This document shows positions 36,375 to 42,774 of a stretch of 48,934 nucleotides of DNA, in pieces. How positions within the stretch are numbered: the stretch's first letter is position 1; every line of letters begins with the position of its first letter. This stretch comes from Elusimicrobiota bacterium (GTDB lineage Bacteria > Elusimicrobiota > Elusimicrobia > Elusimicrobiales > Elusimicrobiaceae): assembly GCA_029008615.1 (NCBI GenBank), contig JAQXJI010000024.1, positions 1-48,934 on the forward strand, read 5' to 3'. A program made the translations under genes and the position numbers. Under the pieces are notes generated by a model. The model was given only the letters and a program-made list of their open reading frames with translations, ran no database searches and was not told the origin of the DNA.

Positions 36375-37016
36375 CTAAAACAACCAAATAAGTTCAATAT
36401 TTGTAGGCTTCGCACCCATACGGGAACAAAATTTTCCGCCTTTTTTGATATCATCTTCGGCCTTATCGGCATTTTGTATCGTTACGTTACACTGCTTCAG
36501 CAGTTCTTGGCCAGCGGGATAGTATCCGTCGTAAAAACGGCGTATTGAATAAGAAGCCCGCAAAGTTTTGAACTTAGGGAAAGCGTGGATTTCCAAGAGT
36601 GAATATGTGGAAGTTTTCCCCTCTTCCGTATAATTAAGTTCTTTGATAACTTCAACCAAAAAAGAATCGCCGTTTCCCAAAGTAAAAGTAAAAGTGTCGG
36701 GCGTCAGCACTTCCTCCCCAGCGTCATGGACGTATCTGCTTGCGGAATAGTTCACTTCGGAAGAGGAGGGCGGCAGCTCAAAATCCAAAAGACGCAAATC
36801 GGCCGTATAATCCCCTTTCTTTGCGAAATATTTTTCTTCCGCCGCAAAAATATCATCGGCAATACTCTTAAGCTCTTTATAATGCGATTTTTGCTTAGAC
36901 GTCCCAATAAACGCAAATATCAAAACCGATAGAAAGAAAGCCACAGTCAAGAGTTTAAATTTATAAGAGATACCAGGCATCAATCCAAATTTAACGCCTA
37001 ATGAATAGCCGCTCAT
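36375..37016 (-). CDS. Pilin-like membrane protein without a prepilin leader
   Basis: A 213-residue protein with one N-terminal helix (about residues 19-38) followed by KSIADDIFAAEEKYFAKKGDYTADL, a pattern typical of the long helix of pilins, then a beta-rich domain with two cysteines near the end (KQCNVTI, KFCSRMG). The usual leader (KG followed by FTLIE) is absent, so the prepilin peptidase should not process it. It starts on the last base of the ankyrin gene's stop codon, so the two are translationally coupled. Function unknown; it may be a derived pseudopilin or a partner of the ankyrin protein. Confidence 0.6.
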   Translation of the reverse strand: MSGYSLGVKFGLMPGISYKFKLLTVAFFLSVLIFAFIGTSKQKSHYKELKSIADDIFAAEEKYFAKKGDYTADLRLLDFELPPSSSEVNYSASRYVHDAGEEVLTPDTFTFTLGNGDSFLVEVIKELNYTEEGKTSTYSLLEIHAFPKFKTLRASYSIRRFYDGYYPAGQELLKQCNVTIQNADKAEDDIKKGGKFCSRMGAKPTNIELIWLF

Positions 37017-39805
37017 TATTTTGCCCCCGCGCTCTTAAGCATGTCCGCTATTTCTTCAAAGCCGCCGGTTTCCGCTATTTTAAGCGCGTTTAAGCCGGTA
37101 TCCTGCCCGTTAATAATGAGGGACGCGTTAAAGTCGGCGCCGGCCTCAAGAAGAAGAGCGACAAAATCTTTATTGCCCGTTTGCGCCGCCATCATAAGCG
37201 GCGTATAGCCGCTGTCGCCTGCTGCGTTTAAATCGGCTTTCGCCCGTATTAAAACCTTTGCGGCTTCTAGATTGCCTGAAGTGCAGGCAAAAAGCAAAGG
37301 AGAACCGACCGCCGGAGCCTTAACATTTACATCGGCGCCGAGGGAGATTATAGCCTCTAACCGTTCATTATCCCCGGCCATTAAAGCGTGGAATAAAGGC
37401 GTAAAACCGGCTGCGTCGGGCGTATTTACGTTCTCCGCGGAAGGTAAAGGCTGAGGCTCAAAATCAACCGGCGAAGTTGCCGCCTCAACCGCGCCGTGTT
37501 CGCGTAAGATTTCGGCCACAGCGGTATTGCCGTTTTCAAGAGCAAGGCTCAAAGCCGTCATACCGGAATCCAAACCGTTTACCAACCAAGAAACGTTCAC
37601 ATCCGCACCAGCTTCCAAAAGCAGTTTGGCAATTTTTTCATTACCCTCAAATGAAGCCAACATTAAAGGCGTTTTCCCGCTTGAATCAGTCATATTGACG
37701 TCCGCGCCCGCCGCAATAAGAGCTTTTAAGAAATCAAAATTCCCGGTGGAAGCCGCCAAAGCCAAAGGAGTATCGCCGGCTTCGGTTTTCAAATTAACGT
37801 CCGCGCCCGCGGTAAGCAAAGCTTTAAAGGTATTTTCATCATAAGTTCTTACGGCTTTAAACAGAGGGGTTTCGCCGTCGGAATCCAGAAGGTTTAAAGC
37901 TTCTTTCGGCAGAGGAACGGCTGCTTCTTCCGCTTGAGGTTTTTCTCCTTTCCAAAAACTGTGCGGCTGATAGTAAACCGGGGTGCGGTAAGCTTCAAAT
38001 TTATTGCGGAAACGTATTTCCTCAAAAGGCAGCAAGGCCGTATTTTCTCCGGAAGAAACTTTAATATCCCAAGGTTCTTTTATGCCGTTAAAAGTGAAAT
38101 TTATTTCTCCTTCAGCTTCAGGGGAAGCGGAAAACGCCTGCATATAGGCTTCTTCGGACGCGCGATTATCGGCCGCAGTTTTATAAGAAACGTATAAATA
38201 AGACGTATTTTCGTTTTTACCGTCTTTAAAGCTGATTTCAATTTCTTTGGGTTTTGCACGCATTGCCGCTTTGCCGAAATCGGCCGGAGTCAATGTTTCA
38301 TTTTCGCCGTTAAAATAGCGCACGGTAAAAGATTCCGCTTCGGGCGTGCTTCCCCCGTTTTCCGCCGGTGCGTTAAACCGTACATTGAAAGCGGTATTAT
38401 ATTTTTTGTTAAACTGATTAAAAAGATCTTTATCCGGCAAGCCGTTTTCTTTAAGATTTTCCGCCGCTTCTTTATTTTCTTGTAAAACGTTTGTTCTGAA
38501 CTCATCCCAATCGGAACCCGCTATCAACGCAGACGAAGCAAAATCGGCAAAATCCAAAGCGACTTCCTTACCTTTCAGCCAAGCTATAAGTTCCGTTTGG
38601 CGGGTATCGCCGCGCTGAGTCCACAGAGCCACACCGCCGTAAGGGGCCGCCCCGATGATAATATCGGTATATAAAGGGCCGCCATCTGCGTCCTTTTTAG
38701 AGAACATTTCTTTTAATTTTTCATAAGGAAGAATCTCTTCCAGCGAATAAGCTTTGTTTTCAACCACGGAATAATATACCATATCAAGCTTACGCGGCAA
38801 AGGGCGCGCGCCGCCTGCGCTTATATGGGAAGATCCCCCCGCAGGGTAACCCCACACATTATTCGGAAGCGGAAACACCTCCGCAGCGCGTTTTCCTTCT
38901 TCATCCAAATAAAGTACGGTAAAAAACGGCTGAATGGGATATAAAGGGTGCATAGTAAGGCCAAGTTCATACTCGACTATGCCGTTTTTAGCCTTTTCCT
39001 CGGCGACGGCATCTTCAAAACTTTGACCGGGCTTAAGAGCGCGCAGGATTTTAAGGTCTCCTTCAAAAATTTCCAATACCTTTTGGCGGGCTTTTGCGAA
39101 ATCCTCTTCGGAAATATTTTTAAGAGGATTATCCTCGTCTTCTCCGGCAAAACGCAATGCACCCTCTTTATACTTTTTAAAGTTGAAAGGCTTTTGTTTT
39201 TCATAGCGGATAATGTCCTCAAAAATATCGGACGTTATTTTAGGGTCGTCGGTTTTCAAATTCTGCTTTACGCCTTCGGTAAATTCCTCTATAATCCAGG
39301 ATTCTTCCCCAAAACTTAAATCCGCGTGTAAAGAAGCCAACATCATATAGCGCATACGTTCGACATAGAACCAAAAAAACAGTTCTTCCGGCGTAAAAAC
39401 ATTTGTCAAGTTGTTGCCAGAATTAATAAATACGTCCATTATGAGTGTCGGGGAAGCGGTTTCAAAAAAATCCGCCGGCATAGGCGCGTATTTTTTATGT
39501 AAATCAAGGATAGCTTGCTCCGCCTGAGCGATTGTTTTTTTGAGGCTTTCTTCGTCTATATCAGGCTTGACGCCTTTATATTTTTCAGCCAGGGCCGCGT
39601 ATTCTTTTTCCATATTTTGTTTAACGTCATCAGGCAGATTGTCAACAAGCATATCTGTAAATAAAGGATACATCTTTTCCCTTATTTCCTGCGTGTCATA
39701 AACTATCGGTTCGGCAGGGGTTTTTTCCCCGCCCATACAGCCGAAATTGGCCGCCTGAGCGCACAAAACTGAAGAAAATACAGATAATTTAATAAATTTA
39801 TTCAT
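37016..39805 (-). CDS. Exported ankyrin-repeat protein
   Basis: A 929-residue protein. The N-terminus (MNKFIKLSVFSSVLCAQAANFGC) is an export signal, cleaved after AQA or perhaps at an atypical lipobox NFGC. Residues about 30-640 are of unknown fold, with an acidic helical start. The last 290 residues hold about eight ankyrin repeats in two groups joined by a Pro-rich linker; consensus pieces are GDTPLALAASTGN, AGADVNMTDSSGKTPLMLAS, GFTPLFHALMAGDN and SGYTPLMMAAQTGN. Ankyrin repeats bind proteins. An extended -10 (TTGCTACAAT, 39838-39847 on the minus strand) and AAGGGG precede the start. The downstream pilin-like gene is coupled to it. Because it is exported it may act at the surface or in the periplasm. 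Confidence 0.85.
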   Translation of the reverse strand: MNKFIKLSVFSSVLCAQAANFGCMGGEKTPAEPIVYDTQEIREKMYPLFTDMLVDNLPDDVKQNMEKEYAALAEKYKGVKPDIDEESLKKTIAQAEQAILDLHKKYAPMPADFFETASPTLIMDVFINSGNNLTNVFTPEELFFWFYVERMRYMMLASLHADLSFGEESWIIEEFTEGVKQNLKTDDPKITSDIFEDIIRYEKQKPFNFKKYKEGALRFAGEDEDNPLKNISEEDFAKARQKVLEIFEGDLKILRALKPGQSFEDAVAEEKAKNGIVEYELGLTMHPLYPIQPFFTVLYLDEEGKRAAEVFPLPNNVWGYPAGGSSHISAGGARPLPRKLDMVYYSVVENKAYSLEEILPYEKLKEMFSKKDADGGPLYTDIIIGAAPYGGVALWTQRGDTRQTELIAWLKGKEVALDFADFASSALIAGSDWDEFRTNVLQENKEAAENLKENGLPDKDLFNQFNKKYNTAFNVRFNAPAENGGSTPEAESFTVRYFNGENETLTPADFGKAAMRAKPKEIEISFKDGKNENTSYLYVSYKTAADNRASEEAYMQAFSASPEAEGEINFTFNGIKEPWDIKVSSGENTALLPFEEIRFRNKFEAYRTPVYYQPHSFWKGEKPQAEEAAVPLPKEALNLLDSDGETPLFKAVRTYDENTFKALLTAGADVNLKTEAGDTPLALAASTGNFDFLKALIAAGADVNMTDSSGKTPLMLASFEGNEKIAKLLLEAGADVNVSWLVNGLDSGMTALSLALENGNTAVAEILREHGAVEAATSPVDFEPQPLPSAENVNTPDAAGFTPLFHALMAGDNERLEAIISLGADVNVKAPAVGSPLLFACTSGNLEAAKVLIRAKADLNAAGDSGYTPLMMAAQTGNKDFVALLLEAGADFNASLIINGQDTGLNALKIAETGGFEEIADMLKSAGAK

Positions 39806-39947: not shown

Positions 39948-40215
39948 GGAATAGAACATTCCGTAAGTCGTTATAACGGCTTATTTACAATTTAATCTGT
40001 TTTTGGAACCGTATGCGGAATACGGTGCGCTATGAGGATACTCATGGCATAGTTAGGATCCAAAAACAGCTCGTTATCAAGCACAAGATAAAGGGAAGTC
40101 ATGAGCCCTTTGTCTTGTGCTGAGTGCTTTCTGCCATATTTTATATGGTAGAAAGCCACGGCTGTTATTATTTGGGTTATCCTAACTAGCTCAGATATAA
40201 CAGCCGTTTTTATTT
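39948..40215 (+). ncRNA. Putative structured RNA of about 265 nt with its own promoter and terminator
   Basis: Almost every base can be paired. In order: GGAAT/ATTCC (39948-39962); TAAG-CGTT/AACG-CTTA (39964-39982); an 11-bp stem CTGTTTTTGGA/TCCAAAAACAG (39997-40007 with 40059-40069) enclosing ACCGTAT/ATACGGT and ATGAG/CTCAT hairpins; a 16-bp stem from AGCACAAGATAAAGGG (40080-40095 with 40106-40121); a 14-bp stem from GCTTTCTGCCATAT (40126-40139 with 40143-40156); and a final 10-bp stem CGGCTGTTAT/ATAACAGCCG (40159-40206) followed by TTTTTATTT, an intrinsic terminator. TAGTTAGGAT (40050-40059) can also pair with ATCCTAACTA (40179-40188) in the last loop. It matches no RNA class I know. The next gene has a separate -10, so this may be a free RNA or a terminating leader. 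Confidence 0.6.
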
Positions 40216-40267
40216 CCCCGCTTTTGCTCCTTGTTATACGTATGAGCTCGGTCAACTTATATAAAAA

Positions 40268-40287
40268 TATAATCCATATTAAGGAGG
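40268..40287 (+). promoter_or_regulatory. -10 box and ribosome binding site of the Slam substrate gene
   Basis: TATAAT at 40268-40273 and AAGGAGG at 40281-40287, just before the ATG at 40297. A start from this box would give a very short leader close to the binding site, so read-through from the structured RNA remains possible. Confidence 0.45.
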
Positions 40288-40296
40288 AAGTATTTT

Positions 40297-41424
40297 ATGA
40301 CAGCACTTATCATAGGATTAATAGCCGCGCTGGGAATCGGCGGAGGTATCGCCGTAGCTAATAACAGCGGCGGCGGTGGTGGAGGAGGAACAGAAATATC
40401 CGGGCCTGCTGTACCGGGTAATGACGGAGGTTCCGGCAATGAAGGCGGAGATAATCAAGGTGGAAACCAAGGCTCCGGCAATGAAGGTGGAAACCAAGGC
40501 GGAGATAACCCCGGTGGCGACAATACTGGCGGCAATGAAGGCGGAAACCAAGGCGGCGACAATACTGGCGGAAACAACCCGGGAAATCCCGCTTCCAAGT
40601 TAAATCCCGACTATAATCTTATCAGTGCATTGACGGATAATACGCAGTATAAAAACATCGTATCTTCAAAGGATTTGAGCCCAGCAGAATACCATTTGAT
40701 CAACGATGGAACAGGAATCAATTACCGCAAAATTTATTTAGGAACAGATGGTGAATCAATCTTGGTAGACACCGGCGTACTTCGCGAAGAAAATGGCTAT
40801 TTTGTCCCCGGTTCCAACGGATATATGGAAGACAAGCAAACCTTACGTTTTACCGCAGAAGATAAAGCGGAAGATGGAGCTAGTTATAACTTGTACCAGA
40901 AGGACACTTCTTCATCTAATGGCTCCGTTCGACATCTGCATAAGTTATATTTGGGCGGGAGTAAAATGGAACTCAGTACGGCGGACTTTGGCTTCTGGAT
41001 TGAATGGCGCAATGGGGCTAACCAGTATAACCGTTACACCGAAATATATTGGTATGATAAAGACTATTTGTATACCGGCGTCCGTTCGGACACGGTTAAC
41101 TTTGCCGGTAATGCGCTGATGGTATCCGAGGATATGAATAGTGCTGAAGGACGGGTGGTAAAGCCAGGCTCCTTTGCCATGACGTTAGATATGGCAGACG
41201 CAAAATTAACGGGAAAAATAGACATGGGCATTTCCAAATATAATGTAGATTTTTCCGGGACTTTGAGCGATAAAAACCAATTAAAGTTTGAAGGAAATAA
41301 TGTCGTGCATGAATACAGTCACGGATATTTACTGCAAGGCAAAGATGGTTTGGAAACGATAGGAAATATCTATACCTCTGAAGGAACAAATGATTATACC
41401 TTCGGTGCCAAAGAAGTAAAATAA
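40297..41424 (+). CDS. Glycine-rich secreted protein with TbpB-like barrel, putative Slam substrate
   Basis: A 375-residue protein. The N-terminus (MTALIIGLIAALGIGGGIAVA) is a hydrophobic export signal with no lysine and no lipobox cysteine. Residues 25-98 are a Gly/Asn/Asp/Glu linker with imperfect repeats such as GGNQGGDNTGG. Residues 105-260 form a handle-like region. Residues 265-375 have the pattern of the small barrel of TbpB-like Slam substrates: an NFAGNA strand followed by GSFAMTLDMADAKLTGKIDM and DFSGTLSDKNQLKFEG. The next gene encodes a Slam-type translocon, which supports the assignment. Without a lipobox it would be secreted or held otherwise, as known for hemophilin-type substrates. 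Ligand unknown; metal, haem or host protein are possible. Confidence 0.7.
   Translation: MTALIIGLIAALGIGGGIAVANNSGGGGGGGTEISGPAVPGNDGGSGNEGGDNQGGNQGSGNEGGNQGGDNPGGDNTGGNEGGNQGGDNTGGNNPGNPASKLNPDYNLISALTDNTQYKNIVSSKDLSPAEYHLINDGTGINYRKIYLGTDGESILVDTGVLREENGYFVPGSNGYMEDKQTLRFTAEDKAEDGASYNLYQKDTSSSNGSVRHLHKLYLGGSKMELSTADFGFWIEWRNGANQYNRYTEIYWYDKDYLYTGVRSDTVNFAGNALMVSEDMNSAEGRVVKPGSFAMTLDMADAKLTGKIDMGISKYNVDFSGTLSDKNQLKFEGNNVVHEYSHGYLLQGKDGLETIGNIYTSEGTNDYTFGAKEVK
40430..40580. repeat. Imperfect tandem repeats in the Gly-rich linker
   Basis: Units such as GGCGACAATACTGGCGG and GGCGGAAACCAAGGCGG recur, coding for GGDNTGG and GGNQGG. Such direct repeats can change in number by recombination and would lengthen or shorten the linker in frame. 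Confidence 0.6.
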
Positions 41425-41431
41425 ATTATGT

Positions 41432-41458
41432 GGGGCCCGGTTTTCGGGCCCCTTTTTC
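41432..41458 (+). terminator. Intrinsic terminator between Slam substrate and Slam genes
   Basis: GGGGCCCG and CGGGCCCC form a perfect 8-bp GC stem around a GTTTT loop, followed by TTTTTC. It ends six bases before the Slam ATG, leaving no room for a separate promoter. Slam is therefore expressed by read-through, or its start lies upstream. Confidence 0.85.
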
Positions 41459-41463
41459 TATTT

Positions 41464-42774
41464 ATGAGAATTTTTTTATCTCTCGTATTATTATTTTTGT
41501 CCGTAGGCATTTCGGCTTTGGATTTAACCCGGGCTGAAACGTTATTGGCACTCCAAAACCCGGAAGGGGCCAAGCGCGTGTTGGCGGAGCAATACTCCCA
41601 AACAACCGACAAAGCCGAAAAAGAACAAATCCAGTTTATTTTAGCCCAAATTGCACTCCGTCAAGGCAAGCAGGACGAAGCTATTGATATTTACCGCCGT
41701 ATGCTTGCCGGTAACCCTTCCCTTTCGCGCGTGCGTTTTGAACTGGGGTATCTCTACTTTCTGCAAAAAAAAGATGATTTTGCCCGCTACCATTTGCGTT
41801 TAGTCTTAGCGGAAAAAGAATTGCCTAACGTCATTCGCCAAAACGTCCAACATATGCTGGAGGCAATCCGCAGACGCAGGGCGTGGCAGTTATACGTCAG
41901 CGTGGGAATGGCGCCTGACTCCAACGTCAATACTATGTCCGGCAGAAGGCTGGAATGTTTTACGATTATGGGCTTCCCGTTTTGCCGGGAACTGGACGGT
42001 ATAGAATCTGATGTCGGTTTCCAAGGCTATGCGTCTTTATCCTATATCCAAAAATTAACGAATAACTGGAAAATAAAAGGACGTTTGATGATAGACGCTT
42101 TAGATTACAACGATGACCGATACTCATTTTGGGGCATAGGCGGAGAGGTGGGGCCGCGTTATGTATCCGGCAAGGCCGAATACGGCTTAGGTATATCTTA
42201 CCGCCAACAATGGAATGACGAACACCGCTACAGCCACAGCAAAGGGTTATTTGGGGAATTTGCGTCTGATTTATCCAATCGCCTCTATTTGTACAGCCGC
42301 CTAAGTGCGGATAAAGTGGCTTATAACGACAAATTGTATCAAGGCTATAACTCCAATAATTACGGGATATTTAACCGTTTAAGTTATGCGCTCACTAACC
42401 ACAGTTACTTTACATTGTCGGCTTCATTCATTTACGAAGACAGCGAAACGGACTGGAACAGCAGCTTGCGCCAACGCTACGGCTTGGGCTATGGCCGGGA
42501 ACTGCCTTGGGGATTTAATATCTATGCGGAACCTAACATTACGCTGACCGATTATCAAGAACCCCGGTATTTTATCGGGCCGAAGTGGAGTTTGGAAGAA
42601 GTAAAACGGAAAGATACGACATACGGCGTTTATGTATCATTAAGCAATAAACACCTTAAATTATGGGATATTATGCCGACGGTAAACTTCATCTATAACA
42701 AGCGCAGTTCCAACGTGTACAACTATGATTATGAGCGCACGCGGTGGGAGATTGGCCTCAGCAAAAGTTTTTAA
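41464..42774 (+). CDS. Slam-type outer-membrane translocon (surface lipoprotein assembly modifier, DUF560)
   Basis: A 436-residue outer-membrane protein. The signal peptide is MRIFLSLVLLFLSVGISA. Residues about 20-145 are tetratricopeptide-like helices (AIDIYRRMLAGNPSLSRVRFELG). From about 150 a beta-barrel begins with RRAWQLYVSVGMAPDSNVN, the segment that marks Slam proteins, and ends in a strand with terminal Phe (WEIGLSKSF), as outer-membrane barrels do. Slams move TbpB-like substrates across the outer membrane (type XI secretion). The substrate gene lies just upstream behind a terminator. No ribosome binding site precedes the ATG; an in-frame ATG at 41428 would add 12 residues encoded by the terminator hairpin. 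Slam systems are known mainly from Proteobacteria, so transfer is likely. Confidence 0.85.
   Translation: MRIFLSLVLLFLSVGISALDLTRAETLLALQNPEGAKRVLAEQYSQTTDKAEKEQIQFILAQIALRQGKQDEAIDIYRRMLAGNPSLSRVRFELGYLYFLQKKDDFARYHLRLVLAEKELPNVIRQNVQHMLEAIRRRRAWQLYVSVGMAPDSNVNTMSGRRLECFTIMGFPFCRELDGIESDVGFQGYASLSYIQKLTNNWKIKGRLMIDALDYNDDRYSFWGIGGEVGPRYVSGKAEYGLGISYRQQWNDEHRYSHSKGLFGEFASDLSNRLYLYSRLSADKVAYNDKLYQGYNSNNYGIFNRLSYALTNHSYFTLSASFIYEDSETDWNSSLRQRYGLGYGRELPWGFNIYAEPNITLTDYQEPRYFIGPKWSLEEVKRKDTTYGVYVSLSNKHLKLWDIMPTVNFIYNKRSSNVYNYDYERTRWEIGLSKSF

Follow-up and report, generated by a model that had tools for sequence, protein, structure and literature searches.

A probable type XI (Slam) secretion pair in gut Elusimicrobiaceae whose cargo carries a conserved, charge-free leader

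A stretch of 48,934 nucleotides from an Elusimicrobiaceae chromosome (the window; source genome 99.6% complete, contamination estimate 0.13%) carries at positions 40297-42774 two co-directional plus-strand genes that very probably form a type XI (Slam) secretion pair: the gene at 40297-41424 encodes the cargo and the one at 41464-42774, 39 bases further downstream, encodes the Slam protein (Table 1). This assessment is for the pair and leaves aside any tethering of the cargo, which we propose more tentatively below. Genome profile searches found a single copy of each gene in the source genome. The earlier note on this DNA, made from its letters without database searches, had read the host as Elusimicrobiota-like and the two genes as a Slam (DUF560) translocon with its substrate, and both readings are borne out, the second by the family searches, structure predictions and adjacent-gene survey described here.

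Table 1. Features of the cargo-Slam locus, with positions in the window
Feature	Position	Strand	Basis or remark
Shine-Dalgarno sequence of cargo gene	40281..40288	+	AAGGAGGA, eight bases before ATG
T11SS/Slam cargo gene, 375 aa	40297..41424	+	Fold matches and BLASTP to lobe 2 of the L029 cargo
Charge-free N-terminal leader, residues 1-21	40297..40359	+	MTALIIGLIAALGIGGGIAVA, conserved putative sorting/anchor signal
Gly/Asn-rich flexible linker, residues 22-100	40360..40596	+	Sequence; pLDDT mostly <50
Handle and pedestal region with LxxADFGFW motif, residues 101-265	40597..41091	+	Alignment with L029 and L110 cargo
C-terminal 8-stranded barrel ending FGAKE, residues 266-373	41092..41415	+	AlphaFold2 model, PDB matches
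Intrinsic terminator between cargo and Slam	41432..41457	+	GGGGCCCG GTTTT CGGGCCCC TTTTT; fold -19.3 kcal/mol
Slam/T11SS outer-membrane protein, 436 aa	41464..42774	+	SlipAM PF04575 and TPR_Slam PF24575
Sec signal peptide of Slam	41464..41517	+	MRIFLSLVLLFLSVGISA; aligns with homologues' signal peptides
Periplasmic TPR helices, Slam residues 33-138	41560..41877	+	TPR_Slam/TPR matches; six helices in model
14-stranded outer-membrane barrel, Slam residues 141-434	41884..42765	+	Model, 14 long strands

The downstream protein matches SlipAM over its whole barrel with 119.4 bits against a cut-off of 22 (E=2.9e-34), and TPR_Slam with 38.8 bits against 35.2 (E=1.4e-9). Its structural model, built from ten homologues and no templates, has a mean pLDDT of 80.9, and the RRAWQLYVSVGMAPDSNVN segment that had been noticed after the TPR helices is indeed the start of the barrel (the SlipAM match covers residues 153-448 of the long ORF). 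PDB matches of the model in Foldseek are outer-membrane barrels, including OmpG, a 14-strand porin, the TPR-barrel protein BcsC, and also PelB; there is no solved Slam among the matches listed. BcsC and PelB in that list might suggest that the second gene encodes an unrelated TPR-containing porin or polysaccharide channel, with a barrel protein as its neighbour by coincidence, the very outcome that the earlier note had said would overturn its proposal. Given the full-length SlipAM match, the TPR_Slam match, the 14 strands and a pairing with cargo that recurs in several loci, we regard this explanation as very improbable. By every feature that could be tested the protein belongs to the Slam/T11SS family, and it would be expected to translocate its cargo. 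We place its start at 41464, where homologues agree and an ordinary signal peptide begins. The start at 41428 chosen by the ORF caller was rejected, as it lies just before a perfect intrinsic terminator and a reading frame from there would run through it.

For the upstream protein, AlphaFold2 predicted three strands at residues 211-254 and eight at residues 266-373, with a block-mean pLDDT of 73-96 in the barrel and low confidence over residues 1-209 (101-209 included). The best PDB match of this model is the N-lobe of LbpB (Foldseek E=1.6e-5), the C-terminal domain of NHBA is matched with a target-normalised TM of 0.64-0.71, and TbpB, HphA and, slightly lower, HpuA are further top matches, with an unrelated entry at rank 10. 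We take all five to be known or accepted Slam cargo. Since the SlipAM and LbpB matches have such E-values and the top cargo matches nearly all belong to one functional class, the finding is not due to chance. The small TbpB-like barrel behind a Gly linker, whose absence would have counted against the earlier note, is therefore present. Its suggestion of a search with TbpB barrel families succeeded in part: the window cargo has no Pfam family match at E<=1, but a two-lobed homologue at a related locus (L029) passes TbpB_B_D with 29.1 bits against a cut-off of 26. Homology of the window cargo consequently runs through structure and through the L029 protein, with whose lobe 2 it aligns over 316 residues (BLASTP E=7e-18). 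PDB sequence-profile searches were swamped by the Gly linker when the whole cargo was used and gave nothing credible for the C-terminal domain, so that structure comparison alone yielded matches. The pattern G....E..G....FGAKK is conserved in the C-terminal barrel, which is likely the Slam-targeting domain; a ligand-binding role of the cargo is a guess. In the linker, the DNA contains imperfect 27- and 12-base repeats.

The ribosome-binding site of the window cargo gene is strong. A purine run resembling a Shine-Dalgarno sequence precedes the MT start in all listed homologues, mostly as AGGAG and weakest in one copy. An upstream start that would add an in-frame RRKYF to the window cargo was dropped, because the homologues' Shine-Dalgarno sequence sits just before MT; such charges are moreover missing from the upstream frames of most homologues. 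At the other end of the gene, the intrinsic terminator is made up of a hairpin (41432-41452) and a T-run (41453-41457). A hairpin of different sequence occupies the same position, between the last cargo and Slam, in L029, L030, L031, L032 and L033, and terminator-like hairpins also lie between most tandem cargos. The inter-gene terminator would hold Slam expression below that of the cargo, which we infer is made in excess over Slam.

SlipAM is patchily distributed. It occurs in 5 of 18 genomes of the genus, and closely related same-genus genomes are without it; it was detected in 13 of 60 near relatives and 38 of 295 genomes of a phylum sample, two counts that include weak matches which are probably not Slam. 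Records matching Slam are MAGs assigned to Elusimicrobiaceae or Elusimicrobiales, and some of these stem from goat abomasum and sheep rumen; the nearest Slams outside the phylum belong to Alphaproteobacteria of rumen and gut. Relatives of the window cargo lie directly upstream of Slam in L029/L030, L110, L031, L032 and L033, and all of them, like the window cargo, have a charge-free leader. Two to six cargos stand in tandem in L031, L032 and L033; L033 has the six, and its genome encodes a seventh charge-free cargo elsewhere. When we searched the 60 relatives with a cargo C-domain profile, eight genomes matched, all of them Slam-bearing, and none of the 47 Slam-free genomes did. Four of the eight (G018, G023, G025 and G026) had not contributed to the profile; by a simple count that assumes independence of genomes, which does not hold, the chance that these four would all be among the nine remaining genomes with SlipAM, out of 56, is about 3e-4. 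In three of the four, G018, G023 and G025, the cargo is a lipoprotein unlinked to Slam, and lipoprotein cargo adjoins Slam in G026, G245, G119 and G016.

Weak SlipAM matches in a sister family (G040, G043, G051 and G264; E 1e-5 to 1e-10) were discarded as Slam pairs, since they have other neighbours and no recognisable cargo. At such loci of the sister family (L024, L025, L027, L117 and L118), the weakly matching gene is followed by one for a protein of 435-600 aa that starts like RIGVAGGVSGMIKA and looks FecR-like by eye, and a membrane protein of about 760 aa precedes the unit in three cases; this is a recurrent, different barrel unit. Slam remnants in L023/L034 (G035) and L115 (G249) consist of the 3' half of the barrel alone with no adjacent cargo, are interrupted by stops in G249, and are consistent with repeated loss. 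A first alignment made for a Slam pattern search was too diverse to serve.

In a tree built by maximum likelihood, the Slams whose cargo is charge-free come together in one clade (support 100/99). Its sister group (93/93) comprises the Slams that have unlinked lipoprotein cargo, and the Slams of G026, G245 and G119 group with those of gut Alphaproteobacteria (100/100). Most simply, Elusimicrobiota would have gained Slam on more than one occasion and the leader would have a single origin; there is precedent (PMC11257099) for genes being exchanged between this phylum and gut Alphaproteobacteria. The nesting of those three Slams might also suggest that the window pair comes from a Proteobacterium binned with Elusimicrobia. 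Such contamination is hardly credible, however, as the pair adjoins an antiporter-LemA-M48 block common to same-genus genomes (M48 up to 78% identical), the contamination estimate is low and every one of the nearest Slams comes from an Elusimicrobial record. Movement within the family is also evident. The window Slam groups with Slams of another genus (97/96), although monophyly of the genus on the Slam tree is not firmly rejected by the AU test (marginal, p=0.057). L029 and L030, from two species, share 8,929 bases containing the pair and a HamB-like helicase gene at 99.65% identity, against 79% in the flanks, which shows that this 8.9 kb block moves horizontally and was recently transferred between species. 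Within the block, the DEAD helicase (L029 1628-3961, L030 2029-4362; PADLOC E=7.5e-57) is preceded by a 243-aa protein without a family match, and the two may together make up a Hachiman-like defence pair that moves along with the cargo and Slam genes. In G026 and G245, genes for serine recombinases are found close to the pair. We looked in same-genus genomes for the exact site without the insertion, but no clean boundary emerged, because the sequence after M48 differs between them.

Just upstream of the window cargo and facing away from it lies a repeated structured RNA element of 270 nt (39961-40237, minus strand) with a fold z-score of -10. Its 28 aligned copies support 75 pairs (90.6% paired), 54 of them with compensatory changes, compared with 0 of 500 shuffles. 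The element occurs in 31 of the 60 relatives, in the same family only, with eight copies in the source genome and about 30 or more in some. Rfam contains no family for it (the best match, RF04315 manA-II, has E=0.26 and is far below the cut-off), and nothing in Rfam matched the pair region at E<=1. Copies stand directly upstream of three separate Slam/cargo loci (window 39961-40237, L029 4343-4615 and L018 4446-4708), and in L122 (4917-5181) a copy occupies the 5' end of a restriction-modification pair of type II; the element may mark or drive accessory-gene insertion. In it, AACGGCUGUU is repeated, has two potential ways of pairing with AACAGCCGU and might act as a switch. The neighbouring minus-strand gene (37016-39805) encodes an ankyrin-repeat protein of 929 aa that has a DUF2931 domain and whose N terminus is lipobox-like.

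The most distinctive feature of the cargo is its leader, which has the consensus MT..GIGGG, no K or R, and no lipobox. Cysteine is absent from both leader and linker of the window cargo, ruling out a lipobox with an acylated cysteine. The earlier note had remarked on a substrate without lipobox or positively charged signal, and both traits prove conserved in 13 cargos, across which T2, A11 and G13-I14-G15-G16-G17 are invariant. Between clades, the first 21 residues are on average 58% identical (range 48-86) and the C-terminal domains 24% (range 19-31); the leader is the more conserved of the two in all 33 pairs, which are non-independent because a single clade supplies ten of the 13 cargos. 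Of the 370 codons for shared residues, 278 (75%) differ synonymously, so the conservation is not a product of recent DNA exchange. Lipoprotein cargos show no such leader excess, with one clear exception (G026-L036). Among 60 genomes, matches to a leader profile (E<1e-3) were confined to those already holding charge-free cargo, a result that speaks for absence elsewhere and not for presence, as the profile was built from rows of those same genomes. Residue-level conservation of this degree exceeds the usual needs of a Sec signal and points to selection on the leader for a specific role.

What that role may be depends on the fate of the N terminus. We tentatively propose that the leader pattern MT[AT]-x-[ILV]-rich-[AC]A-x-GIGGG serves type XI secretion as a signal of a new kind, sorting proteins to the surface or anchoring them there without lipid. 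In one Slam lineage, a hydrophobic segment free of charge would have taken the place of the lipobox; it would remain part of the protein and either hold it at the cell surface or be read by a dedicated partner, and tandem arrays of diversifying cargo would have been built on it. A competing account of the tether step alone, to which we give a real but somewhat less than even chance, is that the leader is a Sec signal peptide of the ordinary sort, though uncharged, which signal peptidase I removes, and that Slam releases the protein to the medium, as with hemophilin-type TXISS-1B cargo. Residues 19-23 fit a signal peptidase I site in the window (AVA|NN) and in L110 (AIA|NN), and soluble Slam cargo is established (PMC8406197). 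Several cargos have poorer cleavage sites, however (e.g., MIAS|N), and the residue-by-residue conservation of the leader, with GIGGG invariant, goes further than a cleaved signal requires and is not seen in lipoprotein cargo signals. It is also more hydrophobic (KD 2.2-2.4) than two lipoprotein signals (1.3-1.7), and with the N terminus free, a long Gly linker would tether nothing; the linker would make best sense if the N terminus were held.

In our working model, the pair has been acquired by gut Elusimicrobiaceae, which pass it on among themselves. The cargo would cross the inner membrane by Sec via its charge-free hydrophobic leader and remain unfolded in the periplasm, until Slam recognises its C-terminal barrel and threads it through the 14-strand barrel to fold outside. 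The leader, having replaced the lipobox of an ancestral lipoprotein cargo, may well still tether the protein without lipid, since the long flexible Gly linker has been retained behind it, with cleavage by signal peptidase I and release as a near-equal alternative. The complete two-gene secretion unit envisaged in the earlier note therefore stands at the level of sequence; export and surface retention would be its expected outcome.

The fold matches of the cargo include binders of transferrin, lactoferrin and haem, which might suggest a haem or iron capture pair like TbpB, HpuA or hemophilin. Cargo of the TbpB and hemophilin types works with a TonB-dependent receptor. By contrast, no TonB Plug domain was detected in the nearly complete source genome, three control genomes being positive, and only one of the 12 Slam-bearing genomes searched has one. 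The likeness also lies in the barrel shared by Slam cargos, which is an export domain and not a ligand site (PMC12282271). As no TonB receptor was detected, an iron or haem role is unlikely, and we consider adhesion or surface display the likelier function. A glycosyltransferase-9 gene lies directly downstream of Slam in L031-L033 (the family was tested for L032), and this gene together with the tandem divergent cargos would fit surface adhesins or display proteins.

Compared with known Slam/T11SS proteins, the window protein has the same TPR helices, 14-strand barrel, full-length family match and adjacent TbpB-like cargo, but it occurs in Elusimicrobiota, belongs to a distinct clade and has a terminator in front. 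Its cargo shares the C-terminal 8-strand barrel and handle with Slam-dependent surface lipoproteins (TbpB, LbpB, HpuA, NHBA and fHbp), some of which also have a Gly linker after the N terminus, and the L029 relative is two-lobed like TbpB. Unlike them, it has a conserved charge-free leader and no detected TonB receptor partner, and its lack of a lipobox excludes the pair from the Slam-dependent lipoprotein systems. Soluble TXISS-1B cargo (hemophilin, HrpC and HphA) is likewise non-lipidated with a single barrel, and HphA is among the best fold matches; the window cargo differs from this group in its sequence-conserved, uncharged leader and long Gly linker, again with no TonB receptor detected. 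The pair may export soluble cargo, or it may represent a third form, in which the tether is something other than lipid. Slams of rumen and gut Alphaproteobacteria (L035-L038) are 28-31% identical to the window Slam, and in L036-L038 the cargo gene is directly upstream and has an [SA]D[FL]G motif, but the cargo proteins of these bacteria are lipoproteins whose signals carry the usual charges.

Work on Slam export has dealt with Proteobacteria, for the most part pathogens, and Elusimicrobiota is a little-studied phylum with few cultured members. Published surveys place Slam in Proteobacteria only or predominantly (PMC5449769, PMC8406197, PMC12282271): one searched on proteobacterial clades and found it there and not in Bacteroides, Borrelia or Campylobacter (PMC5449769), and another, according to which T11SS 'predominantly occurs' in Proteobacteria, includes 27 cargo clusters for which no signal peptide was predicted (PMC12282271). 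Within a literature search of limited reach, we found no publication treating T11SS and Elusimicrobiota jointly. The Slam of gut Elusimicrobia is an independent lineage in which lipidated and non-lipidated cargo exist side by side in close relatives, so that the contribution of the N terminus to Slam export becomes directly testable there. Our findings also suggest a surface-protein export route for Elusimicrobiota and indicate that, in the rumen and gut, genes underlying cell-surface traits cross between phyla.
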